Below are positions 2,125-35,530 of a stretch of 35,530 nt of DNA, one piece after another (the stretch's first letter is position 1; each line of letters begins with the position of its first letter). The position numbers and the translations under genes are program-made. The stretch comes from a virus. The DNA is taken from IMG/VR virus record IMGVR_UViG_3300042731_005198, positions 1-35,530 of that record. One strand, 5' to 3'. Below the pieces are notes generated by a model. The model saw nothing but the letters and a program-made list of their open reading frames with translations. It was not told the origin of the DNA and ran no database searches.

Positions 2125-3462
2125 TTAATATATTTTCTTATTGCTCATCATATCTACCATTTCATTAAACGCTTCTGTAATGTCGGCACAAGTATAAATA
2201 GCGTCATGAACGGTGAAATAAGGCTCTGTAAGCGATTTACAAAAGCCAAACACATAATCAGCCTCAATACGCTGTATTTCTTGTGCTACGGCCTTGTAGC
2301 CGTGCTCTTGCTTGTGTTTGATTATTGCTTGCCATATCGTTGGAAACCAATCTTTGTAGACCTCGATATATCTGTTCTCCCATTGCGGCCTGCCAAACAT
2401 CGTAGACAGCAACGGTATTTTCATGTCGTTTCGAGTTTTGTTTGTGCCATATTTTTTATTGTATCGATTACAAAATTCTGTATAAAAGTCCTTATTAACT
2501 ATCGCTTTAATATACTCTTTATATTCATCTTGATTAATGTCCTTATTATTTAACCATTTTATTAGACATCTTGGCTGACTTGTTGGAATGTCAAACTCAA
2601 AAAGTAGTCCACATAATGAAAGAACTTTCTCTCCTTTCTTTCCTGGGTTATAGGAACACATATTATAATTATTATAGTTAATATAACTATTTTTTATAAA
2701 GCAGGTAAAATTGTCTCTAATTATAGATGGTAGATTAGTCATAGGTGTGTGCTCTCTCCCATATCTATCTTCTATTAAATAGGCTTCTTTATTGTTGATT
2801 AATATACACTTGAATAATATAAGTTGTTTTTCGTAATTAGAGAGAGCCCGCCCTGCTTTGGTTGTAGGATTAGATTTAAGCCAAGATCTAACGGCGGGAA
2901 GATTAATATTTATGGATTTGAGATATTCGAGTCTTTGTTTTTGCTCAAATGTATAATTCTTTTTTGATTTGATCAATAAGCGATTATATGAGTTGATTAT
3001 ACTCTTCTTTGTAAGTTGGTAATATCTCAAATTGCCTCGGACGATCCTATATCTTTTTGTTTGTCCGTGCGTCTCAAAATGCCAATATTTGTGATTAATT
3101 TCTATTATATTTAGTTGCTCAAATAGGTCAATATACGGCTTATATTGTTGGTGAATGCTTCTTAAATATTTCTTGCTCAACTCTGCCCATCTATTCGCAT
3201 CAACGGCGTCCCAATCTATGAACAAATCACGGCGCTGGATTTGCCATAATATCCACATGGCCGTCTGTTTATTGTAGCGTTGAAAGGCTGTATCAGGGAG
3301 TTTATTTACTGCTTGTTGTGGTAGGAATATCGTTATCATGTTACTATCTCTCAATTTGATTTGGCTTTTATTATCGAGCACTCGAAAAAGCCAATAAAAC
3401 GAGCCAAAATACCTGAGATAGTTAGGTTGCTCTATTTTATTGCACGGTAGTAAATCGTGCAT
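2125..3462 (-). CDS. family A-like palm polymerase, probable TV-Pol type
   Basis: This is a 445-residue protein with three spaced motifs of the family A DNA polymerase/T7 RNA polymerase palm. Motif A is F-D291-I-P-T-S-Q-P-R298. Motif B is R344-x3-K348-x7-F356-G357. Motif C is V418-H419-D420. An upstream conserved-looking block, RYGREHTPMTNL (233-244), suits the same family. Order and spacing fit the TV-Pol (transposon-virus polymerase) group described by Iyer, Abhiman and Aravind, proposed to have primase and DNA polymerase activity. No exonuclease or helicase domain is present. It is the only replication-type gene visible, so it probably replicates the phage DNA. The start is uncertain: the first ATG (3462) has no clear ribosome site, while an internal ATG at 3339 (404 aa, MITIFLPQQAV) has GAGAG upstream. 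All motifs lie within both versions. Confidence 0.7.
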   Translation of the reverse strand: MHDLLPCNKIEQPNYLRYFGSFYWLFRVLDNKSQIKLRDSNMITIFLPQQAVNKLPDTAFQRYNKQTAMWILWQIQRRDLFIDWDAVDANRWAELSKKYLRSIHQQYKPYIDLFEQLNIIEINHKYWHFETHGQTKRYRIVRGNLRYYQLTKKSIINSYNRLLIKSKKNYTFEQKQRLEYLKSININLPAVRSWLKSNPTTKAGRALSNYEKQLILFKCILINNKEAYLIEDRYGREHTPMTNLPSIIRDNFTCFIKNSYINYNNYNMCSYNPGKKGEKVLSLCGLLFEFDIPTSQPRCLIKWLNNKDINQDEYKEYIKAIVNKDFYTEFCNRYNKKYGTNKTRNDMKIPLLSTMFGRPQWENRYIEVYKDWFPTIWQAIIKHKQEHGYKAVAQEIQRIEADYVFGFCKSLTEPYFTVHDAIYTCADITEAFNEMVDMMSNKKIY

Positions 3463-3610
3463 ATTTACTATTACACTGTTGCTATGACTTGATTAATCGG
3501 AAAATCATAAAAATGCATCCTACCTATACATTCATATATTGATAGATTGCTTTTATTTTTGTTAATTCAGATCTATCAATAATTACGACTATTATTGAAG
3601 GAAATTAACT
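3463..3610. promoter_or_regulatory. divergent control region between polymerase and virion operons
   Basis: This is 148 bp of AT-rich DNA between the leftward polymerase gene and the rightward packaging operon. A perfect 11-bp inverted repeat, TATTGATAGAT (3537-3547) and ATCTATCAATA (3571-3581), lies in the middle with 23 bp between the arms. The same half-site recurs at 1939-1949. A divergent operator is likely, and promoters in both directions must lie here, but I could not assign the -35 and -10 boxes with confidence. Confidence 0.55.
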
Positions 3611-6290: not shown

Positions 6291-6599
6291 ATGTTAAAAC
6301 GGACGGAAAATAGAATAAAAGAATTAATAGATGAAAAGACAGAGAAATTAGAGAAGATAGATGAGCAATTAAAAGATCTATTAATAAATAACAGTTATAG
6401 TGTAGAGGATATAAAAGATCTAATTTCTTTTATTAAAGAACACTCAATACCACATGTAAGATTAAAGGTAGATAATATAGAATTAGAAATAGTAGGAGAA
6501 CCTCCCATGCGAAATGATATGGAAGGTGAAGAAAGATCAAGAAACCCATTTGGCCTAACAGACGATCAAATAAGAACCGCGGCAGGAAGGGATTGGTAA
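6291..6599 (+). CDS. small coiled-coil protein after terL
   Basis: This is a 102-residue product with a highly charged coiled coil at about residues 1-50 (ENRIKELIDEKTEKLEKIDE). A strand-rich middle (HVRLKVDNIELEIVGEPP) follows, and the tail is polar (GLTDDQIRTAAGRDW). The ATG is one base after the terL stop, and GAGG lies inside the end of terL. Codons in the first half are very AT-rich. Function is unknown; small proteins here can be packaging accessories or head-tail parts. The long repeat-rich gap starts right after its stop. Confidence 0.75.
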   Translation: MLKRTENRIKELIDEKTEKLEKIDEQLKDLLINNSYSVEDIKDLISFIKEHSIPHVRLKVDNIELEIVGEPPMRNDMEGEERSRNPFGLTDDQIRTAAGRDW

Positions 6600-6619
6600 T
6601 AAATAAATAGGCCTAATAT

Positions 6620-6795
6620 AAAGCATATACGTTATACAAGATATACATAAAACTAAAAGCATATATGTATAGAAAACATTAAAAATCAAAGCATATAGAT
6701 TATACAGATATACATAAACATTAAAAATAAAAGTATATTACAAGATATACATAAAAATAAAAGCATATAGGTATAAAAAACATTAAAAATAACAG
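6620..6795. repeat. iteron-like AT-rich direct repeats
   Basis: Five copies of AAAGCATAT or AAAGTATAT begin at 6620, 6656, 6688, 6730 and 6760, spaced 36, 32, 42 and 30 bases apart. They are accompanied by repeated GATATACATAAA and CATTAAAAATA segments. The pattern resembles replication iterons or DNA-unwinding elements. The sequence is nearly free of G and C, so some repetition may come from composition. Confidence 0.6.
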
Positions 6796-6820
6796 GCGAA
6801 TAAATATAACAGCGTTGATT

Positions 6821-6846
6821 GTGTGGTAAGAAAAGTCGCACCACAC
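6821..6846. repeat. inverted repeat GTGTGGT / ACCACAC
   Basis: The arms at 6821-6827 and 6840-6846 are perfect 7-bp reverse complements with a 12-base loop. It stands between the AT-rich repeats and the GC-richer part of the gap. Possible protein-binding site. Confidence 0.45.
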
Positions 6847-6951
6847 CCGCTCACAAAACACTACACGGACACATATTTAATCACATAAACTCACATCCAG
6901 GGCAGACCAGCCAAAATCAATCCAATTCCAGAGAGATCACGTGGCAATAAC

Positions 6952-6975
6952 CTATGAAAATAACCCTTTTCATAG
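6952..6975. repeat. perfect hairpin, 9-bp arms
   Basis: CTATGAAAA (6952-6960) pairs with TTTTCATAG (6967-6975) around the loop TAACCC. On the + strand it is not followed by a T run, so a terminator is unlikely. Its right arm leads straight into the phased ATAG repeats, suggesting a compound recognition site. Confidence 0.55.
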
Positions 6976-7030
6976 ATGGCCATAGAAAGCCCGTAGATGG
7001 CCCGTAGAAGTCCATAGGACCATAGAGGTC
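6971..7030. repeat. helically phased ATAG/GTAG repeats
   Basis: Six CATAG, CGTAG or similar pentamers occur about every 10 bases across 60 bp (CATAGATGGC, CATAGAAAGC, CCGTAGATGG and so on), equally described as three degenerate 20-bp units. Ten-base spacing places each copy on the same face of the helix, as expected for an array of bound proteins. Confidence 0.5.
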
Positions 7031-7118
7031 ATCTCGACCCACAAAGAGCTCACAGGGCAATTGTGGGCCATTTCGACACGGTTCTAGCGTGTATGGAACA
7101 TAGAGACCAGTGTAATAG

Positions 7119-7250
7119 CATATAAGTTAATGTAGGGAAAAGTAAGATAAGATTAATGTAAGGACATATAAATTAATGTAGGGATAGGTAGGATAAGATT
7201 AATGTAAGGACATATAAGTTAATGTAGGGATAGGTAGGATATATGAATAC
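7119..7250. repeat. 46-bp tandem repeat, nearly three copies
   Basis: Units start with CATATAA at 7119, 7165 and 7211, with an exact 46-base period. Inside each unit, TTAATGTAGGGA and, in the complete units, ATTAATGTAAGGA occur, so the unit itself looks like a diverged half-repeat. The third unit breaks down near 7245. It lies 110-240 bases upstream of the portal ATG. Confidence 0.75.
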
Positions 7251-7363
7251 ACGGAGCAAGGCGATCACCGACCCACCCCTACCCTATTATACCCAATATA
7301 ACGGCTCTGACATCGATTTGAAAATTGGCTTTTAATATAACTAAATAATACGGAGATTTATTA

Positions 7364-12810: not shown

Positions 12811-14364
12811 ATGAAACAGTTTCATAGTCTTCCTATTTTTGCTCAGGAGAATATTACAGAAAACAAGAATATACGTAAATTACAAAATTCTCTTGAGGAA
12901 ACTTTGGTCCAGCTTACAAACAGTCTAGCGTTTACTGTTGTAGATGACATATTACAAATAAAGAGCAAGCTAGGGGTTGGTACTTCTGAGGTTCCAGTAG
13001 ATAATATTGGTTCAGCTATAGTAGTATTACACGGTACAGACTCAAGCGTAGACGGGCCACATTTCCAAGTTACTACCACAAAAGATAACTATCCTACACT
13101 TCAACAATTAAATTGGTCGCACGACAATATTAATTTTGCTTTCGACGCTTTCTATAATGGTGCATGGAAATCTTCGGACGCAGGAAGTAACTTTCTTTTT
13201 GCTAAGAACAACGATACTTTAGCCTGGAAGTATGATTCAAATGTTGCCCAAGGTGAAACAGTTTCTTGGAATAATGGAATAGTAATGGATAATGCTGGTA
13301 ATGTAGGCATAGGAACTACTCCAAGTTACCCATTACATTTGACTACTTCTTCGGGCACAGACGCAGAAATAAGAGCACAAACGGCAAATGGAAGTGATAA
13401 TGCTAAATTAACTCTTTTAGCAGCTGGAAATCAAGAATGGCATATAGAATCAGATAGAAGTAACAATCTTATGCAAATAGGTAGTTCCGTTCGTGAAAGT
13501 ATTAAGATTAATGGAAGTAATGGGATTGTCACATTGCCGACTGGTTATTTAAGCGTTGGTGATAGTTCTAAATCAACAGAAGCGGTTGCCGTAGAAATAG
13601 GTGGCGGTAGAACAGACAATGGTTATGCCTTGATAGACTTGGTTGGTGATACAACATACACTGATTATGGGTTAAGAGTTGCTCGCTTAAATACTGGAGC
13701 GAATACAACGTCTACTATAGAACATCGCGGCACCGGAGCTTTAACTTTAAACGCAATAGACGCTGGTACAATAGGTTTTTACACAAACAATACTTTTGCC
13801 GCAACTATTGATAGTTCTCAAAATGTAGGTATAGGAGTTAGTCCTAGTTACAGATTAGATGTTGCGGATAACGTGGCCGACTGGGTGGCTAACTTTTTTA
13901 ACGATGGTAATAGTTCAGAAAGAAACGGTATTAAAGTTCAATGTGGCGCGGATGACCAATCTACTGGCGCACATTATTATTTTGGTGCTTATGATGGGGA
14001 CGGCCAGGCCGAAGGTTATTTGCGCGTTGCAAGTGGCACCTTTGAATTAATCCAGGCGTCGAGTGAAAAACGAAAAACCAATATAACTTTTTCTAACACC
14101 GTTGCTTCTGATATTTTATCAAAATTACAGATTAGACAGTTTAATAGAGTTAAAGATAATATGATTGGTGATTCTCATAGGTTCGGGTTTGTGGCTGAGG
14201 AAGTAGAAAAAATATTTCCAGAGATGGTAGCAATTGGCCCGTGTGGTGGAAAGTTTATATCAGAATCCAGATTGATTAGTGTGCTGGTGAAAGGTTGGCA
14301 AGAATTGAAAAGAGAAGTTGACGATCTAAAGGAACAACTTGATATATGCAAAAACAATCAATAG
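12811..14364 (+). CDS. tail fibre/spike with C-terminal S74 intramolecular chaperone
   Basis: This is a 517-residue protein. The N-terminal ~130 residues include a short coiled coil (NIRKLQNSLEETLVQL), probably for trimerising or docking. The middle is repetitive beta-rich fibre sequence, with NVGIGTTPSYPL near 165 and NVGIGVSPSYRLD near 340. Residues ~415-517 form a peptidase_S74 chaperone: the S-S-E-K-R-K-T-N-I block keeps the Ser and Lys of the cleavage dyad, and HRFGFVAEEVEKIFPEMV follows. S74 domains fold fibre trimers and then cut themselves off. Its 3' end overlaps the next gene by 19 bases. Confidence 0.85.
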   Translation: MKQFHSLPIFAQENITENKNIRKLQNSLEETLVQLTNSLAFTVVDDILQIKSKLGVGTSEVPVDNIGSAIVVLHGTDSSVDGPHFQVTTTKDNYPTLQQLNWSHDNINFAFDAFYNGAWKSSDAGSNFLFAKNNDTLAWKYDSNVAQGETVSWNNGIVMDNAGNVGIGTTPSYPLHLTTSSGTDAEIRAQTANGSDNAKLTLLAAGNQEWHIESDRSNNLMQIGSSVRESIKINGSNGIVTLPTGYLSVGDSSKSTEAVAVEIGGGRTDNGYALIDLVGDTTYTDYGLRVARLNTGANTTSTIEHRGTGALTLNAIDAGTIGFYTNNTFAATIDSSQNVGIGVSPSYRLDVADNVADWVANFFNDGNSSERNGIKVQCGADDQSTGAHYYFGAYDGDGQAEGYLRVASGTFELIQASSEKRKTNITFSNTVASDILSKLQIRQFNRVKDNMIGDSHRFGFVAEEVEKIFPEMVAIGPCGGKFISESRLISVLVKGWQELKREVDDLKEQLDICKNNQ

Positions 14365-24919: not shown

Positions 24920-25465
24920 TTAAGGTAGATATTCTTGTTCTGAAAACGAGTGCTCGATTACCTCAACTCTGTTGTTCTTATGATATATGCCAGTAAGCCA
25001 AGACACTCGATGCTTCTTACTAATAGGATAGCGGTATGAGCAACACATACGGGCTATTATTATATCAGGAGTAGAAATAAAGTCTTGGTAGGCTTGTCCA
25101 CATGTCAATAGTTCAAGCCTACCTATAGCTGACCGCGCACCAGTTACTCTATCAACAGTCTCGTGTGTTATGTATGTTGGTAACGATTGGAATGCTCTAA
25201 TATGGGCATTTGTGCGTGTGTCAGCACAAGCAAGGAAAGTATCCTTGGTTTGCCCGTAAACATGGCTGGCGTGTCGTGTAGAAGCGCACGATACGATTGT
25301 TAGGATGGCCAACAGAATAGTGACAATGACACTTGTTGCCTTGGTCTCTGGCCTGCGCTTGTGTGATTTAATCCAGCCTTTCTCCTGGGCCTTACGCACC
25401 CAAGCTTCCCCGAATTGCTCCCTCAAGTTATCAATCTCACTCTGCGTCGGTTTCCGTTTTGACAC
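24920..25465 (-). CDS. membrane-anchored hypothetical protein with Cys-rich outer domain
   Basis: This is a 181-residue protein. The N-terminal ~40 residues are charged and cytoplasmic-looking (SEIDNLREQFGEAWVRKAQE). A hydrophobic helix (44-60, TSVIVTILLAILTIVSC) ends at Cys60, which resembles a lipobox but lies far from the N-terminus. The remaining ~120 residues contain more Cys and would be periplasmic. It is the distal gene of the integrase operon and overlaps the end of the integrase gene by 29 bases. Lysogenic conversion, superinfection exclusion or a spanin-like role are possible; none is proven. Composition is GC-richer than the virion genes. Confidence 0.6.
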   Translation of the reverse strand: MSKRKPTQSEIDNLREQFGEAWVRKAQEKGWIKSHKRRPETKATSVIVTILLAILTIVSCASTRHASHVYGQTKDTFLACADTRTNAHIRAFQSLPTYITHETVDRVTGARSAIGRLELLTCGQAYQDFISTPDIIIARMCCSYRYPISKKHRVSWLTGIYHKNNRVEVIEHSFSEQEYLP

Positions 25466-26411
25466 CGTCGTTTCCTTTCATTGTCCCGTAGGGGACGTTC
25501 AGTTGTAAAACACCACGCTGTTGTGTGGCTTCATCCCTGCGATCGTAGCGGGCGGTAATCTGAACATTGCTGTGCCCAACTTGACGGGCAATCGTGCTCA
25601 GGTCGACACCAGCGTCGAGCAACTCCGAGATAAACGACCTACGTAGGTCATGGGGTGAGAATGGCTTAATACCCGCTTTCTTGTGTCTCAGACGCACTAT
25701 ATCGTAGACAGTCTGGGCATTGATCGCTCTGCCAACTACAACAAATCCAGACTTGCGAACCCGGTTGAAAAGGTAGCCTGGCTTGACGCCACGGTTCACT
25801 AGCCATTCGACCACGGCGTTTACGGTTCCAGGTGGCAAGAACACGGTCCGCTCTTTGTTGCCCTTGCCGATGACCTTGCAGCGCCCCTCGGCTATATTGA
25901 CATTCTCGACCTGTAACTCGGCAACTTCGGCTCGTCGTAGGCCTGCACCGTAGAGCATGGCCAGGATAGCAATGTCGCGATTACCAAGGGCCCTATTGCT
26001 GTCCTTGGCGCAGGTCTCAAACAATGTGGCAATCTCGTCTACCTTTACCACCCTACCCTTTGGTTGGCGTTTTCCACGAATCGGTGACACGTCAATGGTT
26101 CTTGCCATAGCCTCATGGGTCAATAGCCCCAAGCGCCAGGCTGTCTTTAGCACGCCACGCACAGCGGTAAGGTAGCGGTTTGCTGTAGCGGGTGCGTACC
26201 GTCTGACCAAGTGTGCCCGTAGAGCCGCAAGGTGCGGTGCTTTTAGTTCGTGCCAGGCCAACTCATCGGCTAGTACTTGGTCGTCGCTAAGAACCGAAGC
26301 CACGGATTCAAGAGCTGACCGCATAGTGCGGGCCGAGCCAGCATTGAAAGCACTGAGGTAAGTGTTAATTGGGTTGTCTTCGTATCGGTGGGTTTTGATG
26401 AAGATAGGCAT
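25437..26411 (-). CDS. int: tyrosine recombinase / integrase
   Basis: This 324-residue enzyme performs site-specific recombination between phage and host attachment sites. An N-terminal SAM-like core-binding domain (~10-105) is followed by the catalytic domain. The full active-site set is visible: R159 (GAGLRR), K183 (IGKGNKER), H254 and R257 (SPHDLRRSF), H280 (QVGHSN) and the nucleophile Y289 (ARYDRR). It is XerD-like in length and motif style. The start at 26411 (MPIFIKTHR) lies 1 base after the stop of the upstream TPR gene. An extension further upstream would overlap that gene and lacks support. GC content is clearly higher than in the virion region. Confidence 0.92.
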   Translation of the reverse strand: MPIFIKTHRYEDNPINTYLSAFNAGSARTMRSALESVASVLSDDQVLADELAWHELKAPHLAALRAHLVRRYAPATANRYLTAVRGVLKTAWRLGLLTHEAMARTIDVSPIRGKRQPKGRVVKVDEIATLFETCAKDSNRALGNRDIAILAMLYGAGLRRAEVAELQVENVNIAEGRCKVIGKGNKERTVFLPPGTVNAVVEWLVNRGVKPGYLFNRVRKSGFVVVGRAINAQTVYDIVRLRHKKAGIKPFSPHDLRRSFISELLDAGVDLSTIARQVGHSNVQITARYDRRDEATQQRGVLQLNVPYGTMKGNDGVKTETDAE

Positions 26412-26412
26412 G

Positions 26413-27111
26413 TTAGTCTTCGATAAACCTCGGCAGGGTCGCCCCAAGCTTGGTGAATGCTAGGTTGTAAGTAGCCGAGCAAGAACTAGACACCCTACAT
26501 TCTGCCGCACTTGGAATGAGTTGCCCGTTTCCGACTGGCCAATATTCGTAGGAGCACATAGCCTCAAGCGTCACCTCATAGCCGTCCGAGTCGATGTAGG
26601 TGCACGTTTCGATACTATCGGCCACGCAAGCGTCCGGGTATTCGTCCAACGTTGTCATCCAACAGTGACCGTCGGTCATAGCCGCTTCGATATACGCGCT
26701 AAACAAGCCCTCTGGAGAATGGATGTAGAGGTCGATGCCACGCAACCCAAAGGGGTTATAGGCTTGCTTGCTGATACCAACCCGATAACGGCCATTGACC
26801 ATTTCCAGGCCAGTACAATCGATGTCTCCACAAGCGACTGTGGCCATAGAGATGGCAACCAAGATAACAAAAGAAGTAATCAGTTTGAAGACTGCGCTAG
26901 CCTTGGCGAATATCCCTTTGCGCTCGTATTCCTCGGCGACCTTGCGGTACTCGTGCTTGGCCATGTTGGGACGTCCCATCTTGCGTAGTAGATCTGCCCT
27001 ACGCAAACGAAGTGTCGGGCTGTCTGGCTTATTGGCTATGGCTTGCTCGTAGACTTGGAGCGCTTCGTTGAGGTTTCCTCCGTTGATTAGTTTTGCCGCT
27101 TTGTTAATCAT
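26413..27111 (-). CDS. TPR domain fused to a membrane-anchored extracytoplasmic domain
   Basis: This is a 232-residue protein. Residues 1-76 form a TPR pair (AAKLINGGNLNEALQVYEQA, then HEYRKVAEEYERKGIFAKAS) very like the N-terminal TPR modules of Myxococcota proteins. A transmembrane helix (78-94) follows, ending in a TVAC lipobox-like site. The C-terminal ~138 residues are rich in Cys and acidic residues, including one DGY triplet, and would face the periplasm. The arrangement (cytoplasmic TPR, helix, outer domain) is unusual for a phage protein. AAGGAGAT precedes the ATG. It is the first gene of the integrase operon. Function unknown; a host-derived sensor or immunity protein is plausible. 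Confidence 0.65.
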   Translation of the reverse strand: MINKAAKLINGGNLNEALQVYEQAIANKPDSPTLRLRRADLLRKMGRPNMAKHEYRKVAEEYERKGIFAKASAVFKLITSFVILVAISMATVACGDIDCTGLEMVNGRYRVGISKQAYNPFGLRGIDLYIHSPEGLFSAYIEAAMTDGHCWMTTLDEYPDACVADSIETCTYIDSDGYEVTLEAMCSYEYWPVGNGQLIPSAAECRVSSSCSATYNLAFTKLGATLPRFIED

Positions 27112-27348
27112 AGGTATCTCCTTAGTTGTTGTGTAGATGTGTGACGATTGCTACGCCTTGAAAAGTGTGATTTTTACAGCGTATGTATATCGAAAACGAA
27201 GACCGCCTCGCGAGCCCCCGCCTGGTTTCCTTTGCTGTCAGCGTGCTTATCATCTCCCCTACTCCAAGTCTACCATAGCCATCCTGTTTTTTCATCCGGG
27301 CTTTGGACCGGCAACGGCACAGTTACTAGGGCCACAAGGGCCCCGGTT

Positions 27349-27624
27349 TCACTTCTCCTTTCTGGCCTCGCAGGTCACCGCGAAAGTCTTATCGTCGAGC
27401 TTGCGAACGCGCAGGAGAGTACCATCCTTGCGGTCCTTGTTGGCGTCTTTTGCCCAGTTGCGTAGGCGGGAAACGAATGAAGAATCGCAACCCTCGTATG
27501 GGATGCCGTCCCCTTCTTTGAGAGCGTCCCACCTTTGCTGTAGCGGATTCGCCTTTTTGGTTGCCCCCTTGGTGGCAAAGTTCATTGCTTTTACCTTCAT
27601 CGTTTTTCCTGCTTTACCTGTCAT
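27349..27624 (-). CDS. small basic hypothetical protein, 91 aa
   Basis: This Lys-rich protein has a possible N-terminal DNA-contacting tail (AGKTMKVKAMNFATKGATKK). A helical middle (LQQRWDALKEGDGIPY, then SSFVSRLRNWAKDANK) precedes a strand pair (GTLLRVRKLDDKTFAVTCEA). AAAGGA lies just before the ATG; an internal ATG (MKVKAM) could also be used. It stands upstream of the integrase operon and downstream of the large inverted repeat at 27689-27750. A regulator or an integrase accessory (excisionase-like) protein is a reasonable guess from size, charge and position. Confidence 0.6.
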   Translation of the reverse strand: MTGKAGKTMKVKAMNFATKGATKKANPLQQRWDALKEGDGIPYEGCDSSFVSRLRNWAKDANKDRKDGTLLRVRKLDDKTFAVTCEARKEK

Positions 27625-27688
27625 CGTCCTTTGTCCTTTCTTGTTGGTTTTCGTTCAACTGATATGATCGGCTACTTTTCGCCAATCT

Positions 27689-27750
27689 ACAACCAAATCT
27701 TACACTAATTTTTGTAGTAATATTATACACTTAAAAATTAGTGTGGTTGT
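27689..27750. repeat. large interrupted inverted repeat
   Basis: ACACTAATTTTT (27702-27713) is the perfect reverse complement of AAAAATTAGTGT (27733-27744). An outer pair, ACAACC (27689-27694) and GGTTGT (27745-27750), extends it; the left side has 7 extra bases between inner and outer arms. The - strand loop contains TATAAT. It lies upstream of the integrase region and downstream of the last MORN gene, so it could be an operator, a promoter control site, an integrase-binding (attP) site or a terminator. Confidence 0.6.
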
Positions 27751-27779: not shown

Positions 27780-28499
27780 TTAGTCTATCCGCTCCCCATA
27801 CATGTATGCTTGTTCCGTCTCAAGTTGTCCGTTTGGATACCAGTATTTCACAATCCCGTGTTGTTGCCCTTGGTGGTAAGGGATTTCCCTTTCAAGTTTT
27901 CCATTCTCATGCCAATATCTTACAATCCCGTGTTTTTGTCCTTTGTGGTATGGGGCTTTAAACTCAAGTTTTCCATTCTCATCCCAACATTTCACAACCC
28001 CGTGTTCTTGTCCTTTGTGCCATGGGATTTCCCACCAAAGTTGTCCATTTGGATACCAGTATTTCACAACCCCGTGTTTTTGTCCTTGTCGGTATGGAAT
28101 TTCACTTTCAAGTTTTCCGTTCTCATCCCAACGTTTCTCAACGCCGTGTTGTTGCCCTTTGTGGTAAGGGATTTCCTTTTGAAGTTGGCCATTCTCGTGC
28201 CACCATTTCACAACCCCGTGTAGTTGTCCTTGTTGGTATGGAATTTCCCACCAAGGTTGTCCATCATCATACCACCATTTCTCAACGCCGTGTGGTTGCC
28301 CTTTGTGGTAAGGGATTTCCTTTTGAAGTTTTCCATTCTCATGCCAGGATCTTACAACCCCGTATCCTTGCTCTTGGTTGTATGTGACCACCTGTTTAAG
28401 TTTTCCGTTAGGCCACTTTTCAACCGCACCATATATGATACCTTCGACGCAATTACAAATCGCAAACAACATAGCAAACACAACTAATACCCTTTTCAT
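27780..28499 (-). CDS. secreted MORN_2/YwqK-type repeat protein
   Basis: This is a 239-residue protein. Unlike the other copies it begins with a signal peptide (MKRVLVVFAMLFAICNCVEG, positive end then hydrophobic core), so it is probably exported. It lacks the shared HDAYTAW segment. About nine 24-residue repeats follow, of the type HGVVKWWHENGQLQKEIPYH, and the protein ends YMYGERID instead of WEHG. AAAGGAAAAG precedes the ATG. It is the last MORN gene of the array, next to the inverted repeat at 27689-27750. Chromosomal YwqK-like proteins are often secreted lipoproteins, so this copy may be closest to the ancestral form; that is inference. Confidence 0.85.
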   Translation of the reverse strand: MKRVLVVFAMLFAICNCVEGIIYGAVEKWPNGKLKQVVTYNQEQGYGVVRSWHENGKLQKEIPYHKGQPHGVEKWWYDDGQPWWEIPYQQGQLHGVVKWWHENGQLQKEIPYHKGQQHGVEKRWDENGKLESEIPYRQGQKHGVVKYWYPNGQLWWEIPWHKGQEHGVVKCWDENGKLEFKAPYHKGQKHGIVRYWHENGKLEREIPYHQGQQHGIVKYWYPNGQLETEQAYMYGERID

Positions 28500-28862: not shown

Positions 28863-29861
28863 TCAGAGTGCTATTCCGTGTTCCCAATACGTTTCACTTT
28901 CAAGTTGTCCATTTAAATACCACCGTTTCTCTACCCCGTGTTTTTGTCCTTGGTGGAACGGGACTTCATACTTAAGTTTTCCGTCTTCATACCAACGTTT
29001 CACAACCCCGTGTTGTTGCCCTTGGTGAAATGGTATTTCAACTTCAAGGTGTCCATTCTCGCGCCACCGTTTCTCAACCCCGTGTTCTTGCCCTTGGTGA
29101 AATGGTATTTCCTTTTGAAGTTGTCCATTTTCGTGCCACCGTTTCATAACGCCGTGTTCTTGCCCTTGGTGAAACGGGACTTCATACTTAAGTTTTCCGT
29201 CTTCATACCACTGTTTATCAATCCCGTGTATTTGTCCTTGTTGGTATGGGGCTTCAATTTGAAGTTGTCCATTCTTGTGCCACTGTTTTACAATGCCGTG
29301 TCTTTGCCCTTGGTGAAACGGGACTTCAAACATAAGTTTTCCATTCTCATCCCAACGTTTCTCAATGCCGTGTGGTTGCCCTTGGTGATATGGGGTTTCC
29401 TCTTGAAGTTGGCCATTCTCGTGCCAACGTTTCTCAACCCCGTGTTTTTGCCCTTGTTGGTAAGGGATTTCTGATTGAAGTTGTCCGTCTTCATACCAGT
29501 ATTTTATAACCCCGTGTTCTTGCCCTTTGTGCCATGGGATTTCCTCACAAAGTTGTCCATTCTGATACCACCGTTTCTCAATGCCGTGTGGTTGCCCTTG
29601 GTGGAATGGAGCTTCACTTTGAAGTTGGCCATTCTCGTGCCAACGTTTCTCAACGCCGTGTTTTTGCCCTTGGTGGAACGGGACTTCACTTTCAAGTTGT
29701 CCATTTGGATACCAATATCTTACAACATAGCTTTTCGTTTCCGCATTGATATCACTTATAGTAATAGGATCGTTTTCTTCATCCTGCCAATGAATTCCTT
29801 TTTCATCTTTATGTGTCAATCCTGATATCCAGGCTGTGTAAGCGTCGTGTAGTAAGTTCAT
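28863..29861 (-). CDS. MORN_2/YwqK-type repeat protein (12 repeats, longest copy)
   Basis: This is a 332-residue protein starting at the ATG at 29861 (MNLLHDAYTAWISG). A longer frame exists but would overlap the previous gene, and the MNLL start is shared with other copies. After the ~45-residue N-terminal segment come twelve 24-residue repeats, the most in the window. The repeat with GKLKYEVPFHQGQ occurs twice at separate places, a sign of internal duplication. The C-terminus is YWEHGIAL. The start overlaps the stop of the upstream MORN gene (ATGA). The long array of near-identical 72-bp DNA units makes this a likely site of unequal recombination or of assembly error. Confidence 0.9.
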   Translation of the reverse strand: MNLLHDAYTAWISGLTHKDEKGIHWQDEENDPITISDINAETKSYVVRYWYPNGQLESEVPFHQGQKHGVEKRWHENGQLQSEAPFHQGQPHGIEKRWYQNGQLCEEIPWHKGQEHGVIKYWYEDGQLQSEIPYQQGQKHGVEKRWHENGQLQEETPYHQGQPHGIEKRWDENGKLMFEVPFHQGQRHGIVKQWHKNGQLQIEAPYQQGQIHGIDKQWYEDGKLKYEVPFHQGQEHGVMKRWHENGQLQKEIPFHQGQEHGVEKRWRENGHLEVEIPFHQGQQHGVVKRWYEDGKLKYEVPFHQGQKHGVEKRWYLNGQLESETYWEHGIAL

Positions 29862-30352
29862 TGTTTTATTCCGTGTTCCCAATAGGTTTCCAACCAAAGC
29901 TTTCCATTGTCATGCCACACTTTCACAACCCCGTGTTTTTGTCCTTGATAAAATGGTATTTCCGCCCTAAGTTTTCCATTCTCATACCACCGTTTCATAA
30001 CGCCGTGTATTTGTCCTTGTTGGTATGGTATTTCAACTTCAAGTTGTCCGTTATCGTGCCACCATTTCACAACCCCGTGTTTTTGTCCTTTGTGCCATGG
30101 TATTTCCTCATAAAGTTGTCCATTCTCATCCCAACGTTTCATAACGCCGTGTCTTTGCCCCTGATAAAATGATAGTTCACTTTCAAGTTGTCCATTTGGA
30201 TACCAATATCTTACAATATAACTTTCCGTTGCCACATTCACATTGCTTATGGTAATAGGATCGTCATATTTATCCTGCCAATGAATTCCTTTTTCGTCTT
30301 TGTGTGTAAATCCTGATGTCCATGCTGTGTAAGCGTCGTGTAGTAATGTCAT
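29858..30352 (-). CDS. MORN_2/YwqK-type repeat protein (5 repeats)
   Basis: This is a 164-residue protein starting MTLLHDAYTAWTSG at 30352, where AAAGGA lies about 9 bases upstream. The longer in-frame version lacks support. It has the N-terminal segment, five repeats and the ending YWEHGIKQ. Its stop overlaps the next MORN ATG (ATGA). It is the first gene after the 307-bp gap at 30353-30659, so transcription of this sub-cluster may start there. MTLL versus MNLL starts correlate with position: in the complete genes MTLL copies follow non-MORN genes or gaps, and MNLL copies directly follow another MORN gene, except for 34334-34972. Confidence 0.85.
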   Translation of the reverse strand: MTLLHDAYTAWTSGFTHKDEKGIHWQDKYDDPITISNVNVATESYIVRYWYPNGQLESELSFYQGQRHGVMKRWDENGQLYEEIPWHKGQKHGVVKWWHDNGQLEVEIPYQQGQIHGVMKRWYENGKLRAEIPFYQGQKHGVVKVWHDNGKLWLETYWEHGIKQ

Positions 30353-30376
30353 TCTGTTTTTCCTTTCTCTATTGGT

Positions 30377-30431
30377 GGAACGGGTGAGTCGGGGAGGATT
30401 GATAAAAAGGAGGACCCTACCCACCCGTTCC
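30377..30431. repeat. 10-bp inverted repeat in MORN leader
   Basis: GGAACGGGTG (30377-30386) pairs perfectly with CACCCGTTCC (30422-30431). It lies 25-80 bases upstream of the MORN ATG at 30352 and could fold in the leader mRNA or bind a regulator. No T run follows the stem directly on the - strand. Confidence 0.5.
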
Positions 30432-30953: not shown

Positions 30954-31499
30954 TTACACCTCCAAGCCCCACGCGTCCCAACCTTGTGCCCTTTGCCTTG
31001 CGAATAACTCAATGCGTGGTATATTGCCATATAGTTCTACGATTCGATCCCGTGCTTCATCTGGCTTCCTACTGTGTTCCCTGCGCTTGGATATTATAAC
31101 TGAACTGACTTTATTACTTACTGGCTTAAGCCTTCCTTTAATGCCAAGCAAACAGACTTCAGCGTTCGATTTAGTGTAGTAGCCAACACCAAAACAGGGC
31201 CTACCATTTCTTTTGTTGGTTTTAATCCAAGTGAAAGCGACCGTTTTATAATCAAAGCCCCAGTGCTTAAATAATTTAATTTGCTCGTCTAAATAAGGAA
31301 ACGTGCACCACAGAAATAGAGCACAGTTTGGTTCAGCTATATTTGGAACCGGTAACGCTTTAATCTCCGCCATAGACATTAAATCATAGTGGCCACAAGC
31401 TCCACCACGAAATCGTGTTTTATGATTTGCTTTGCTATTGTATTTCCAAGGCGGATCGGCGTAGATTATGGAATATTGTTTATTTGTTGTTAGATTCAT
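30954..31499 (-). CDS. MT-A70 family DNA N6-adenine methyltransferase
   Basis: This is a 181-residue enzyme that would methylate adenine N6 using S-adenosylmethionine. The catalytic DPPW motif is at 15-18 (YADPPWKY). It is followed by MSMAEIKALPV, ALFLWCTFPYLDEQIKLF and WGFDYKTVAFTWIKTNK, all typical of the MT-A70 family, and by a C-terminal block with KPDEARDRIVELYG and RIELFARQ. AGGA precedes the ATG. Such phage enzymes usually protect DNA from host restriction or mark it for other purposes; no restriction partner is seen. It heads a three-gene operon placed between MORN genes. Confidence 0.93.
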   Translation of the reverse strand: MNLTTNKQYSIIYADPPWKYNSKANHKTRFRGGACGHYDLMSMAEIKALPVPNIAEPNCALFLWCTFPYLDEQIKLFKHWGFDYKTVAFTWIKTNKRNGRPCFGVGYYTKSNAEVCLLGIKGRLKPVSNKVSSVIISKRREHSRKPDEARDRIVELYGNIPRIELFARQRAQGWDAWGLEV

Positions 31500-31548: not shown

Positions 31549-32262
31549 TTAGCTCTGTCTATATCCGTGTTCCCAATACGTTTCACTTTCAAGTTGTCCG
31601 TTCTCGTTCCACACTTTCACAACCCCGTGTTTTTGTCCTTGATAAAATGGTATTTCCGCCCAAAGTTTTCCATTCTCGCGCCACTGTTTCACAACCCCGT
31701 GTTGTTGTCCTTGGTGAAATGGTATTTCCTCTTCAAGTTGTCCGTTATCGTACCACCGTTTCACAACCCCGTGTTGTTGTCCTTGGTGAGCTGGGATTTC
31801 CGCCTTAAGTTTTCCACTCTCATACCACTGTTTCACGATTCCGTGTTCTTGTCCTTTGTACCATGGGACTCTAAACTCAAGTTTCCCATTCTCATACCAC
31901 CATTTCTCAACCCCGTGTTGTTGTCCTTTGTGCCATGGGGTTTCAACTTCAAATTGTCCGTTTTCATTCCACCGTTTCTTAATGCCGTGTATTTGTCCTT
32001 GTCGGCACGGTATTTCCAACCAAAGTTGCCCATTCTTGTGCCACTGTTTTACAATGCCGTGTCTTTGCCCTTGGTGAAACGGGACTTCATTTTCAAGTTG
32101 TCCGTTATCATACCAGTGTCTTACAACATAGCTTTCTGTTTCCGCATTTACATTGCTTATGGTAATAGGATTGTCATATTTATCCTGCCAATGAATTCCT
32201 TTTTCATCTTTATGTGTCAATCCTGATAACCATGCTGTGTAGGCGTCGTGTAGTAAGTTCAT
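31549..32262 (-). CDS. MORN_2/YwqK-type repeat protein (8 repeats)
   Basis: This is a 237-residue protein starting at MNLLHDAYTAWLSG (32262), with the ATG overlapping the stop of the upstream copy (ATGA at 32262-32259). It has the N-terminal segment and eight 24-residue repeats, some deviating (FRVPWYKGQ, EIPCRQGQ). The end, YWEHGYRQS, differs slightly from the family ending. The repeat block FYQGQKHGVVKVW is shared with the copy at 29858-30352, indicating exchange of repeats between copies. Confidence 0.88.
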   Translation of the reverse strand: MNLLHDAYTAWLSGLTHKDEKGIHWQDKYDNPITISNVNAETESYVVRHWYDNGQLENEVPFHQGQRHGIVKQWHKNGQLWLEIPCRQGQIHGIKKRWNENGQFEVETPWHKGQQHGVEKWWYENGKLEFRVPWYKGQEHGIVKQWYESGKLKAEIPAHQGQQHGVVKRWYDNGQLEEEIPFHQGQQHGVVKQWRENGKLWAEIPFYQGQKHGVVKVWNENGQLESETYWEHGYRQS

Positions 32263-32753
32263 TGTTTTATTCCGTGTTCCCAATGGGTTTCTAACTCAAG
32301 CTGTCCATTCTCATGCCACAGTTTCACAACCCCGTGTTGTTGCCATTGGTGAAATGGGATTTCTGCTTCAAGCTGTCCGTTCTCATGCCACCGTTTCATA
32401 ACGCCGTGTAGTTGTCCTTGATAAAATGGTATTTCCAACCAAGGTTGTCCGTTTTCATACCACTGTTTCACAACCCCGTGTTTTTGTCCTTGGTGAAATG
32501 GGGCTTCAATTTGAAGTTGTCCGTTCTCGTACCACCGTTTCTCAACGCCGTGTTGTTGCCCTTGGTGAAATGGTACTTCCTTCAAAAGTTGTCCGTTTTG
32601 ATACCAATATCTTACAACATAGCTTTTTGTTTCCGCATCAATATCACTTATGGTAATAGGATCGCCATTCTCATCCTGCCAATGAATTCCTTTTTCATCT
32701 TTATGTGTCAATCCTGATAACCAGGCTGTGTAAGCGTCGTGTAGTAATGTCAT
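32259..32753 (-). CDS. MORN_2/YwqK-type repeat protein (5 repeats)
   Basis: This is a 164-residue protein beginning MTLLHDAYTAWLSG, with the shared N-terminal segment, five repeats (one with QWQ in place of QGQ) and the ending HWEHGIKQ. Its ATG overlaps the stop of the zinc-ribbon gene (ATGA at 32753-32750), and its own stop overlaps the next MORN ATG. It is therefore the middle of a three-gene chain joined by four-base overlaps, which suggests fixed ratios of the products. Confidence 0.88.
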   Translation of the reverse strand: MTLLHDAYTAWLSGLTHKDEKGIHWQDENGDPITISDIDAETKSYVVRYWYQNGQLLKEVPFHQGQQHGVEKRWYENGQLQIEAPFHQGQKHGVVKQWYENGQPWLEIPFYQGQLHGVMKRWHENGQLEAEIPFHQWQQHGVVKLWHENGQLELETHWEHGIKQ

Positions 32754-33199
32754 TTTTTCACCCCTGCTAATCGTTCAATCAATTGCTCTGAACGCAATTC
32801 GTCTCTGGTATCCTGGAGCATCTTAATGCGCTCATCCAACTCGAGAATCTTTTTATCTAGAGGTACGTCCCAAGAAATAGTATAATTGGCACCCGGATAA
32901 GAACTATTATTGACAACACCAAACCCTAATGCCATTAATCTATCAATAAATAATTGGTTGACGTCGCCTAACGAGCAATTGACCAAGCCACTTCTTGCAG
33001 AATCATAAATATGAGACATTATTTCTTCAAATGCTTTATCGCTATTTGCCAGTGTTCTGACTTTCTTGGCGTCTTTTAATTTATAACATTCATAATAGCA
33101 CATACGATGATAATATTTTATTAATAGTGTATTAGATTCAGTGTAGATTTTGCGTTGCCATGGACGAATAGGCTTATTACATATTGGACATAGTTTCAT
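32750..33199 (-). CDS. zinc-ribbon hypothetical protein coupled to MORN gene
   Basis: This is a 149-residue protein. The N-terminus has a probable zinc site: Cys4 and Cys7 (LCPICNKPI), then His31 with Cys34 and Cys38 (YYHRMCYYECYKL). The middle (~50-110) is a mixed helix-strand region ending YTISWDVP. The last ~35 residues are a charged helix (LDERIKMLQDTRDELRSEQL). The stop overlaps the MORN start by four bases. DNA, RNA or protein binding are all possible for a single ribbon with a coiled-coil tail. It has the same style of W-containing end as the protein at 984-1298. Confidence 0.7.
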   Translation of the reverse strand: MKLCPICNKPIRPWQRKIYTESNTLLIKYYHRMCYYECYKLKDAKKVRTLANSDKAFEEIMSHIYDSARSGLVNCSLGDVNQLFIDRLMALGFGVVNNSSYPGANYTISWDVPLDKKILELDERIKMLQDTRDELRSEQLIERLAGVKK

Positions 33200-34333: not shown

Positions 34334-34972
34334 TCATTGTTTTATTCCGTGTTCCCAATGGGTTTCACATTCAAGCTTTCCATTCTTGTACCACTGTTTA
34401 GCAACACCGTGTATTTGCCCTTGGTGATATGTGGTTTCCATCCAAAGCTGTCCGTTTTCATACCACTGTCTCACAACACCGTGCTGTTGCCCTTGTTGGT
34501 ATGGGACTTCAAACATAAGTTGTACGTTGCCATACCACCGTTTCACAACGCCGTGCTGTTGTCCTTGTTGGTATGGGACCTCAAACATAAGTTGTCCGTC
34601 GGCATACCACTGTTTCACAACCCCATGTCTTTGCCCTTGGTGAAATTGGATTTCCGCTTCAAGTTGTCCATCGGCATCCCAATCCTTTTCAGTTCCGTAT
34701 TTTTGTCCTTGTTGGTATGGGACCTCAAGTTTAAGTTGTCCATTTTCGTGCCACTGTTTCACGATTCCGTGTTTTTGTCCTTGGCGATATGGTTCTTCAC
34801 TTTCAAGTTGTCCATTTGGATACCAATATTTTACAATATAGCTTTTTGTTTCCATATTGATATTGCTTATGGTAATAGGATCGTTTTCTTCATCCTGCCA
34901 ATGAATGCCTTTTTCATCTTTGTGTGTCAATCCTGATGTCCATGCTGTGTAAGCGTCGTGTAGTAGGTTCAT
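34334..34972 (-). CDS. MORN_2/YwqK-type repeat protein (7 repeats)
   Basis: This is a 212-residue protein beginning MNLLHDAYTAWTSG, with seven repeats. One repeat departs strongly (KYGTEKDWDADGQLEAEIQF) and two adjacent ones are near-identical (QLMFEVPYQQGQQHGVV twice), which points to a recent duplication. It ends HWEHGIKQ. The start shares one base with the stop of the upstream MORN gene (TAATG). It is followed by non-MORN cargo genes. Confidence 0.88.
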   Translation of the reverse strand: MNLLHDAYTAWTSGLTHKDEKGIHWQDEENDPITISNINMETKSYIVKYWYPNGQLESEEPYRQGQKHGIVKQWHENGQLKLEVPYQQGQKYGTEKDWDADGQLEAEIQFHQGQRHGVVKQWYADGQLMFEVPYQQGQQHGVVKRWYGNVQLMFEVPYQQGQQHGVVRQWYENGQLWMETTYHQGQIHGVAKQWYKNGKLECETHWEHGIKQ

Positions 34973-35530
34973 TATTTTATTCCGTGTTTCCTTATCATTT
35001 TTTCTATGTATTCTTGTCCTATTACGTGTTTCCTTATTATTTTTTCTATGTATTCTTGTCCTTGGTCATAGGGGATTTCCCGCCAAAGTTGTTCATTGCC
35101 ACACCACTCTTTCACAACCCCGTGTCTTTGCCCTTGATAATATGGTATTTCTTCTTCAAGCTTTCCGTTCTCGTGCCACCATTTCGCGATTCCGTGTTTT
35201 TGTCCTTGGTGAAACGGGATTTTCCACCAAAGTTTTCCGTTTTCGTACCACCGTTTCTCTACCCCGTGTTTTTGTCCTTGATGGTAAGGGATTTCCCACC
35301 AAAGTTTTCCATTTTCGTGCCACTCTTTCGCAACCCCATGTTGTTGCCCTTGGTGAAATGGTACTTCCTTCAAAAGTTGTCCATTTTGATACCAATATCT
35401 TACAACATAGCTTTTTGTTTCTATGTCAATATCACTTATAGTAATAGGATCGTTTTCTTCATCCTGCCAATGAATTCCTTTTTCATCTTTATAAGTTAGC
35501 CCTGATAGCCAGGCTGTGTAAGCGTCGTGT
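34972..35530 (-). CDS. MORN_2/YwqK-type repeat protein with atypical C-terminus, 5' end cut
   Basis: The frame runs off the right edge in codons for HDAYTAWLSG; only about four residues and the ATG are missing. It has the N-terminal segment and five repeats. Then, instead of the usual WEHG ending, it has a tail containing two copies of GQEYIEKxIRKH. The tail is encoded by a 42-base tandem duplication (starts at 34983 and 35025). Its TAA shares one base with the next ATG. If the genome is circular, the gene at the left edge (1-410) lies just before or beside this one. Confidence 0.85.
   Translation of the reverse strand, partial: HDAYTAWLSGLTYKDEKGIHWQDEENDPITISDIDIETKSYVVRYWYQNGQLLKEVPFHQGQQHGVAKEWHENGKLWWEIPYHQGQKHGVEKRWYENGKLWWKIPFHQGQKHGIAKWWHENGKLEEEIPYYQGQRHGVVKEWCGNEQLWREIPYDQGQEYIEKIIRKHVIGQEYIEKMIRKHGIK
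34983..35066. repeat. 42-bp tandem duplication in MORN gene 3' end
   Basis: Two units starting CGTGTTTCCTTAT begin at 34983 and 35025, differing at very few bases. The period is 14 codons, so the reading frame is kept. It forms the atypical C-terminus of the MORN protein at the right edge. Confidence 0.75.

Follow-up and report, generated by a model that had tools for sequence, protein, structure and literature searches.

A predicted compact palm polymerase with a winged-helix-like head in a 35.5-kb phage, with relatives in large phages and bacteria

What does a small phage encode for the replication of its DNA when one gene only is recognisable as a polymerase? This question is raised by a viral record in IMG/VR, 35,530 bases long (subsequently designated the window, i.e. 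the whole stretch of DNA that was analyzed). An earlier note had proposed that a single open reading frame (2125-3462) encodes a divergent family A/T7-like palm polymerase similar to TV-Pol and represents the sole replication gene. The coordinates of this frame proved exact, and its orientation, which had been left unstated, is on the minus strand (Table 1). The frame is open and carries no internal stops.

The polymerase gene and its phage genome

The polymerase gene recurs at 100% identity in a second contig of 36,171 bases (IMGVR_UViG_3300037297_000099). This contig follows the window from position 13462 down to 1, continues over 20 bases and then runs from 35530 down to 34229, all at 100%. 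As it spans both ends of the window, the genome maps as a circle of ~35,550 bp, and from this end closure we infer that the circle is the whole phage genome. Both contigs may stem from one sample, and a scan for sister phages using the terminase of the window returned the second copy of the same phage only.

Twenty-nine other ORFs of the window were scanned with Pfam and/or PHROGs, a set that leaves aside most of the MORN genes and a few small ORFs. Matches comprised a terminase, a portal, weak head/tail matches, an acetyltransferase, a tyrosine integrase, an MT-A70 methyltransferase, a TPR protein and MORN repeats; several ORFs were matchless. No helicase, primase, SSB or initiator was detectable among these 29 ORFs, the polymerase models PF00476, PF07733 and PF00136 matched nowhere in the window, and no helicase or SSB gene adjoins the polymerase gene. 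The idea of a sole replication gene agrees with what could be searched, as the closed genome yielded neither a second polymerase nor a recognisable helicase or primase; the role in replication itself is a best guess (see below).

Table 1. Positions of the features discussed in the text. Positions refer to the window, residues to the palm polymerase.
Feature	Residues	Position	Strand	Remarks
Palm polymerase gene	445 aa	2125-3462	minus	Start codon 3460-3462, stop 2125-2127; heads leftward cluster
Winged-helix-like N-terminal domain (predicted)	36-150	3013-3357	minus	Model pLDDT 86.7, best VIA Z 7.0
D-x-Y-G-R...R segment	232-249	2716-2769	minus	R236 and R249 invariant (53/53)
Motif A, EFDIPTSQPRCL region	289-300	2563-2598	minus	D291, S295, Q296 and P297 invariant (53/53)
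Motif B, RNDMKIPLLSTMFG	344-357	2392-2433	minus	K348 53/53, F356 51/53
Motif C, TVHDAI	417-422	2197-2214	minus	T417 and D420 53/53, H419 52/53
Divergent promoter region		3463-3610		Facing ATATTGATAGAT copies at 3536-3547 (+) and 3571-3582 (-), one mismatch
Non-coding AT-rich direct-repeat block		6620-7241, within 6590-7363		Candidate origin
Higher-GC patch with tyrosine integrase and TPR protein		25000-27700		GC 0.47-0.53 vs ~0.40
Eight MORN-type repeat genes, first four		407-973, 27780-28499, 28863-29897, 29858-30424	minus	
Eight MORN-type repeat genes, last four		31549-32283, 32259-32753, 34334-34972, 34972-35373	minus	

The polymerase gene faces the rightward packaging/structural operon across 148 bp. 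Sites resembling ATATTGATAGAT were found in this divergent region (two facing copies; Table 1) as well as at 1938-1949 and 32938-32949, two of the four being exact and two carrying one mismatch. When up to two mismatches were allowed, the motif occurred in 13 places compared to 5.9 expected, a number reached in 0 of 100 shuffles, and it possibly serves as operator or promoter. The direct-repeat block comprises a 57-nt pair at 6635 and 6739 and a 46-nt unit present three times in 7104-7241. Judged by its sequence it may represent iterons or an origin; it stands apart from the polymerase gene.

Elsewhere in the genome, the higher-GC patch carrying the tyrosine integrase has possibly been acquired. 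The MT-A70 methyltransferase is encoded at 30954-31499 on the minus strand (PF05063, E 1.7e-31). The MORN-type copies share ~75-84% DNA identity with each other and form an amplified family that occupies much of the right end; one copy was confirmed with Pfam as MORN_2.

Relatives in phages and bacteria and their gene neighbourhoods

A tblastn search of 50,697 phage records returned seven. Six are uncultured phages with genomes of 595-735 kb, matched at E 1e-9 to 0.1; the other match is at chance level (E 9). As LR756501 and LR756503 gave an identical row, the six correspond to five distinct large genomes. In a search with a six-member alignment, relatives were found to be encoded in 95 of 174 candidate viral stretches, and 80 of these 95 were taken into later work. 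A scan that covered 84,980 species genomes of bacteria and archaea yielded 10 relatives, which belong to Bacteroidota, Planctomycetota, Verrucomicrobiota and one unplaced MAG; when 296 genomes from the phylum to which Rufibacter belongs were sampled, 15 gave a match. A plasmid search returned no match.

The family alignment comprises 53 sequences, namely the window protein, 42 viral representatives and 10 proteins from genomes. Representatives were picked at 75% identity and proteins below 300 aa were excluded, as were the large-phage members L003-L007 of the annotated collection (L006 had already been merged with L027). The member at L092 is cut by the contig end, and that at L204, which is without the motif, was kept out of the tree. 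A profile built without the window protein recovers nearly all of the latter (140.8 bits, E 2.7e-39 at a Z of one million). The tree places the window protein on a long branch (3.18) in an open fork near L052, so that its closest relative is not fixed.

Pfam returned Paramyxo_NS_C as the sole row for the window protein (residues 36-79; E 0.012, below the cut-off), and the cut-off of PF00476 (DNA_pol_A) was not reached. PHROGs with the window protein, and a PDB sequence search with the window protein and two alignments, gave nothing useful. When all 53 members were submitted to Pfam and PHROGs, scattered weak rows appeared, none of them common to more than five members, and no model of either collection covers the family. 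Our literature search, judged mostly from titles and abstracts, recognised no earlier description. What emerges is a family of compact family A-type palm polymerases that is without a name and extends from small phages to giant ones and to some bacteria; this family in large phages and bacteria had been absent from the earlier note, as had the winged helix and the steric-gate Gln described below.

To survey the polymerases that accompany family members, PolB, PolIII alpha and PolA were looked for as PF00136, PF07733 and PF00476 in nine large-phage records. A family B polymerase was present in eight of the nine and PolIII alpha in the remaining one (LR756511); with another main polymerase in each of them, the family member is accessory in these phages. 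PF00476 matched in one of the nine, again LR756511, in the gene right behind the family member. In this 595-kb genome (L005:7578-10024) the second palm gene has a 4-nt overlap with the family member, and its DNA_pol_A match has an E of 1.0e-20. At a Bacteroidota locus (L089; 6143-8508), the family member is followed by a 265-aa protein, which is matched by the profile of divPolA2 (see below; E 6.6e-10) and by phrog_4756 (E 2.1e-9). Among up to 94 loci, near-copies included, 64 have one particular neighbour family behind the gene and 58 share a second one, which lies mostly upstream; this recurrence indicates that the site is conserved in large phages.

The member of Flavobacterium sedimenticola (L091) resides in a prophage that also encodes a portal, a head protease, an endolysin and a serine integrase. 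It is located on the integrase side and is divergent from the lysis and structural genes; a UmuC-like Y-family polymerase, recognised by eye, is encoded near it (L091:13763-15028). An exonuclease gene is next to the family member at L097; the gene in this place in Flavobacteriaceae bacterium 14752 codes for a 5'-3' exonuclease-like protein (phrog_107 'exonuclease', E 1.2e-23). A serine recombinase lies near the member at L096. Several family copies per genome, some of them split into two ORFs, were observed in Rufibacter latericius (L232 and genome G004); they lie near an apparent tyrosine recombinase (by eye) and look like decaying mobile copies.

Active-site motifs, predicted fold and comparison with known polymerases

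Motifs A, B and C occur in the order and at the places that had been proposed, namely D291 (within FEFDIPTSQPR), R344-x3-K348-x7-F356-G357 and H419-D420. The strict motif order was found in 0 of 20,000 composition-preserving shuffles of the protein (a loose version in 23 of 20,000), and D291, K348 and D420 are present in all 53 members. More telling against chance than the shuffles are this conservation, the tblastn matches in five distinct large genomes, the recovery by the profile built without the window protein and the modelled palm fold (see below). Twelve residues are invariant throughout the alignment (R236, R249, D291, S295, Q296, P297, Y327, K348, P374, E400, T417 and D420), while at the position of R344, 37 of the 53 members have Arg and 12 have Lys. 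The window protein itself deviates from the consensus at a number of conserved positions (T294, L352, A401, A421). By their positions in the motifs, D291 and D420 would be the two metal-binding aspartates and K348 the fingers lysine of a putatively catalytic protein. From the order of the motifs, residues 232-249 probably correspond to the segment TGR...NIP.R in DNA polymerase I.

The D+5 position of motif A and the K+4 and K+8 positions of motif B presumably govern the choice of sugar. They were compared with T7 RNAP, T7 DNAP and one Bacteroidota DNA polymerase I. At D+5, Gln is present in 53 of 53 members, whereas both reference DNA polymerases have Glu and T7 RNAP has Gly. K+8 is Phe in 51 of 53 members and Tyr in all three references. 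K+4 is Tyr in 42 members, Phe in 6, Leu in 3 (including the window protein) and another residue in 2; the references have Met (T7 RNAP), Tyr (T7 DNAP) and Phe (Bacteroidota DNA polymerase I). The invariant Gln stands where family A DNA polymerases have their steric-gate Glu. Since the active-site letters match neither known class exactly, they yield no decision between DNA and RNA synthesis.

The AlphaFold2 model calculated on the 53-sequence alignment has a family A palm (mean pLDDT 79.2, pTM 0.76; unreliable at residues 1-29 and in parts of 259-283). VIA-align gave Bacillus DNA polymerase I as the best match (Z 12.2, rmsd 3.2, 238 residues). All 50 matches listed are family A polymerases, DNA polymerases having the highest scores among them; T7/N4 RNA polymerases are missing from these 50, which is not counted as evidence against them. 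Foldseek detected nothing below E 0.001 in the PDB (best 5.4e-3), and its top matches there, all above that value, are family A DNA polymerases and, at ranks 6-9, mitochondrial RNA polymerases. In the viral structure library BFVD two matches stood out, A0A516L5C2 (E 2.9e-18) and the 'Putative DNA polymerase I' A0A8D9FR19 of an uncultured marine phage (E 8.5e-18); further down came, among other proteins, one of Aeromonas phage 4L372D (E 1.6e-5) and one of Rheinheimera Barba31A, which ranked 17th (E 4.3e-3). Motifs and predicted fold thus agree with the proposal of a divergent family A palm polymerase, and according to the model the window protein is a compact polymerase with this palm fold. In the model, residues 36-150 form a winged-helix-like head and residues ~165-445 the palm and fingers, and where a full thumb would be expected there is a short helical linker. 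The protein had rightly been described as compact and without exonuclease or helicase, but it is more than a palm, as it has the N-terminal domain.

Residues 36-170 were also folded alone using 52 sequences (pLDDT 86.7). Foldseek gave weak matches, mostly to winged-helix regulators. Top in VIA were the plasmid initiators 4pql (Z 7.0), 4pt7 (6.8) and 5kbj (6.5), plus ORC winged helices. Plasmid Rep or ORC/Orc1/Cdc6 chains account for 12 of the 50 matches listed, including ranks 1-5, the others being mainly Fur/PerR, MarR, TFE and ScpB. As these Z values are below 8, where common arrangements score too, they support the fold class and no relationship. We take 4pql, 4pt7 and 5kbj, the PDB titles of which say 'initiator' and 'Rep-DNA complex', to belong to the RepA_N family; the winged-helix head shared with such initiators is a fold-class match, and these initiators are not known to have a palm. 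Going by the modelled fold, the head may bind DNA.

By profile comparison, the closest described relative is divPolA2, as a sister group. In the available part of Yutin et al. 2024 (PMC11348598), divPolA2 is reported from barbaviruses, ICP1 and other Vibrio phages, with a palm, without the usual thumb and with an N-terminal globular domain without known fold. In barbaviruses it occurs beside a regular PolB, and a repair polymerase or an RNA polymerase are both considered there. Profile-profile comparison with a divPolA2 set (AUR84708 and nine relatives) gave 97.5% and E 7.8e-12; the alignment spans residues 230-443 and pairs all three motifs as well as the GR segment. A second, weak N-terminal piece was not significant. 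HMMER with the 53-sequence profile matched two of 11 whole phage records, namely LR756511 (the family member) and Aeromonas phage 4L372D, where the match falls within the divPolA2 gene (E 5.6e-8). Conversely, a search with the divPolA2 profile found 11 of the 52 other members at E <0.001, the window protein being absent at E<=1. BLASTP of the family against AUR84708 showed no similarity and a viral scan with AUR84708 no relative. Because of the forward link and the reverse miss of the window protein, we file the family as a sister of divPolA2 rather than a member. Both have ~430 aa, motifs A/B/C and a GR segment before motif A, both are without full thumb or exonuclease, and in large phages both accompany another main polymerase; the Foldseek matches in BFVD are a further point in common. 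However, AUR84708 has YDFKAFE and is without the D-I-x-N-S-Q-P signature of the family, and the available part of the paper does not report divPolA2 as the sole polymerase gene of a small phage (PMC11348598).

The TV-Pol family, to which the window protein had been likened, was defined by Iyer et al. 2008 (PMC2579912; available in part). By description, TV-Pols are likewise compact palm polymerases of mobile elements/viruses without exonuclease, and have an Arg before motif A (here R236, 53/53), RxxxK in the fingers and two aspartates. According to the available excerpts, CCPol of SCCmec is a TV-Pol that becomes a primase with its small ssDNA-binding partner MP (PMC7581432), which is predicted as an OB fold (PMC10061031). 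CCPol keeps the residues E710 and F762 that are named for E. coli Pol I in the same excerpt (PMC7581432), whereas the present family has Gln at D+5. No D5 helicase or OB-fold partner was seen in the window, and here a winged helix is fused to the polymerase. TV-Pols typically, though not always, have a D5-like helicase fused or next to them, or a resolvase, integrase or transposase as neighbour; in the window no helicase was found in the scanned ORFs and the tyrosine integrase lies elsewhere in the genome, whereas the member at L096 has the serine recombinase near it. TV-Pols also have a conserved fingers aspartate, and among the 53 members no aspartate of the fingers is invariant. The 53-sequence profile had no match in Microcystis phage Ma-LMM01, a TV-Pol carrier, in which PF00476 matches two neighbouring frames (157489-158636) that we take as its ordinary polymerase.

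With DNA polymerase I and T7 DNA polymerase (PF00476), the family shares the palm and fingers fold (VIA Z 12.2) and the motif order. It differs from these in having no PF00476 match and no exonuclease domain, and in the changes Glu to Gln in motif A and Tyr to Phe in motif B. T7-like and N4-like RNA polymerases share the superfamily fold, and N4 RNAP2 is of similar length (404 aa); they differ at the sugar-selecting positions. Profile comparisons were not significant for DNA polymerase I (six genomes plus T7 gp5), for T7 RNA polymerase (12 sequences; hhalign 0.3%) or for the N4 enzymes (RNAP2 4.2%), so that membership in the superfamily rests on fold, motifs and the divPolA2 link. The profile search that had been suggested against Pol A and single-subunit RNAP families therefore gave no significant match to these, and the link obtained is that to divPolA2. 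With filters off, the family profile ranked N4 RNAP2 first among the reference sequences in HMMER, although the match is weak (E 0.00037), and a viral scan with N4 RNAP2 returned N4 itself only. As far as the available part extends, a jumbo phage survey names neither TV-Pol nor such a family and cites Iyer 2008 (PMC7824862). In the excerpt at hand, a lineage of large aquatic phages has a VOG labelled 'DNA polymerase I' in 28 genomes beside PolB (PMC12619734).

Possible roles of the protein

Family A enzymes include both DNA polymerases and RNA polymerases. A family of ~400 residues with its own presumed DNA-binding head and an altered sugar gate would be a compact test case for the way in which the palm gains or gives up primer dependence and selects NTPs or dNTPs, and for what a small phage itself has to contribute so that its replication can begin. 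It provides the sole recognised polymerase gene of a small phage, stands beside a main polymerase in phages of up to 735 kb and occurs in bacterial genomes as well.

With a confidence just short of even, we favour the role of an initiator/primase-polymerase, by which replication of the phage would be begun on behalf of the host replisome; this grading and those given below are judgements, not calculations. The winged helix would grip the phage origin, perhaps the repeat block, or single strand exposed there, the palm would make or extend a short first strand, and the host helicase and Pol III would take over bulk synthesis. Such a role accounts for the lone gene in a small phage and for the fused DNA-binding head. 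It also has a precedent in CCPol-MP, the closest biochemical one, where the ssDNA-binding partner is separate whereas here the head is fused in cis; according to the available excerpt, CCPol with MP is the sole bare family A member shown to prime DNA within the cited literature (PMC7581432). We further count in its favour that the searches of the closed genome revealed neither a second polymerase nor a helicase or primase and that the Flavobacterium prophage member is divergent from lysis and structural genes. Counted against it are the following: the polymerase role is a prediction in all members, large phages carry PolB or PolIII alpha beside the family member, the Foldseek matches in the PDB are weak, the profile comparisons with DNA polymerase I or T7 RNA polymerase alone are not significant and the winged-helix Z is below 8, no helicase or SSB gene adjoins the gene and the repeat block is remote, and the window protein is a long branch that is off consensus at several conserved places.

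It is rather doubtful that all these activities are combined in one polypeptide, i.e. an initiator-primase-polymerase with a Rep-like winged helix in cis and a rebuilt sugar gate (invariant Gln, near-invariant Phe), which would read the origin, initiate DNA or RNA strands in a primer-independent manner and pass further synthesis on to the replisome of the host. If true, a 35-kb phage would need one replication gene, and huge phages and bacterial mobile elements would have in common a module for priming outside DnaG/AEP with the DNA-binding part built in.

The presence of another main polymerase in nine of nine large phages (PolB in eight, PolIII alpha in one) speaks for an accessory enzyme for repair, gap filling or translesion synthesis, which aids phage DNA synthesis but does not start it; repair is also one option of Yutin et al. 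for divPolA2 in the available part of their paper (PMC11348598). The exonuclease-like neighbour in Flavobacteriaceae bacterium 14752 and the second palm protein next to the family member in LR756511 and L089 fit this role as well. The 35.5-kb phage, however, has no other recognised polymerase to assist, bar that of the host, and simple gap filling leaves the steric-gate Gln and the fused winged helix unexplained. On balance, we regard an accessory role as unlikely, though a serious contender. Transcription of phage genes by a single-subunit RNA polymerase, with the winged helix as promoter-binding head, would agree with the mitochondrial RNA polymerases among the Foldseek matches, with the rank of N4 RNAP2 in the filters-off search, with matches of phrog_2051 'RNA polymerase' to two of 53 members (best E 0.0032) and with the resemblance of D-x-Y-G-R to DWRGR of T7 RNAP. 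An RNA polymerase is likewise entertained for divPolA2 in the available part of Yutin et al. (PMC11348598). This assignment seems distinctly unlikely to us: DNA polymerases hold the highest VIA scores, D+5 is Gln and not the Gly of T7 RNAP, and the residue after L396 is Gln in 50 of 53 members, as in DNA polymerases, where T7 RNAP would have His at the presumably equivalent position. In addition, a search with one motif found no repeated late promoter.

Finally, the palm might be catalytically dead and kept as a DNA-binding or regulatory protein, to which the long branch of the window copy, its lack of some residues conserved elsewhere and the decayed, split copies in Rufibacter would fit. We consider this very unlikely because the invariant residues are kept; all twelve are present in the window protein, including both aspartates and the lysine, and its frame is open throughout.
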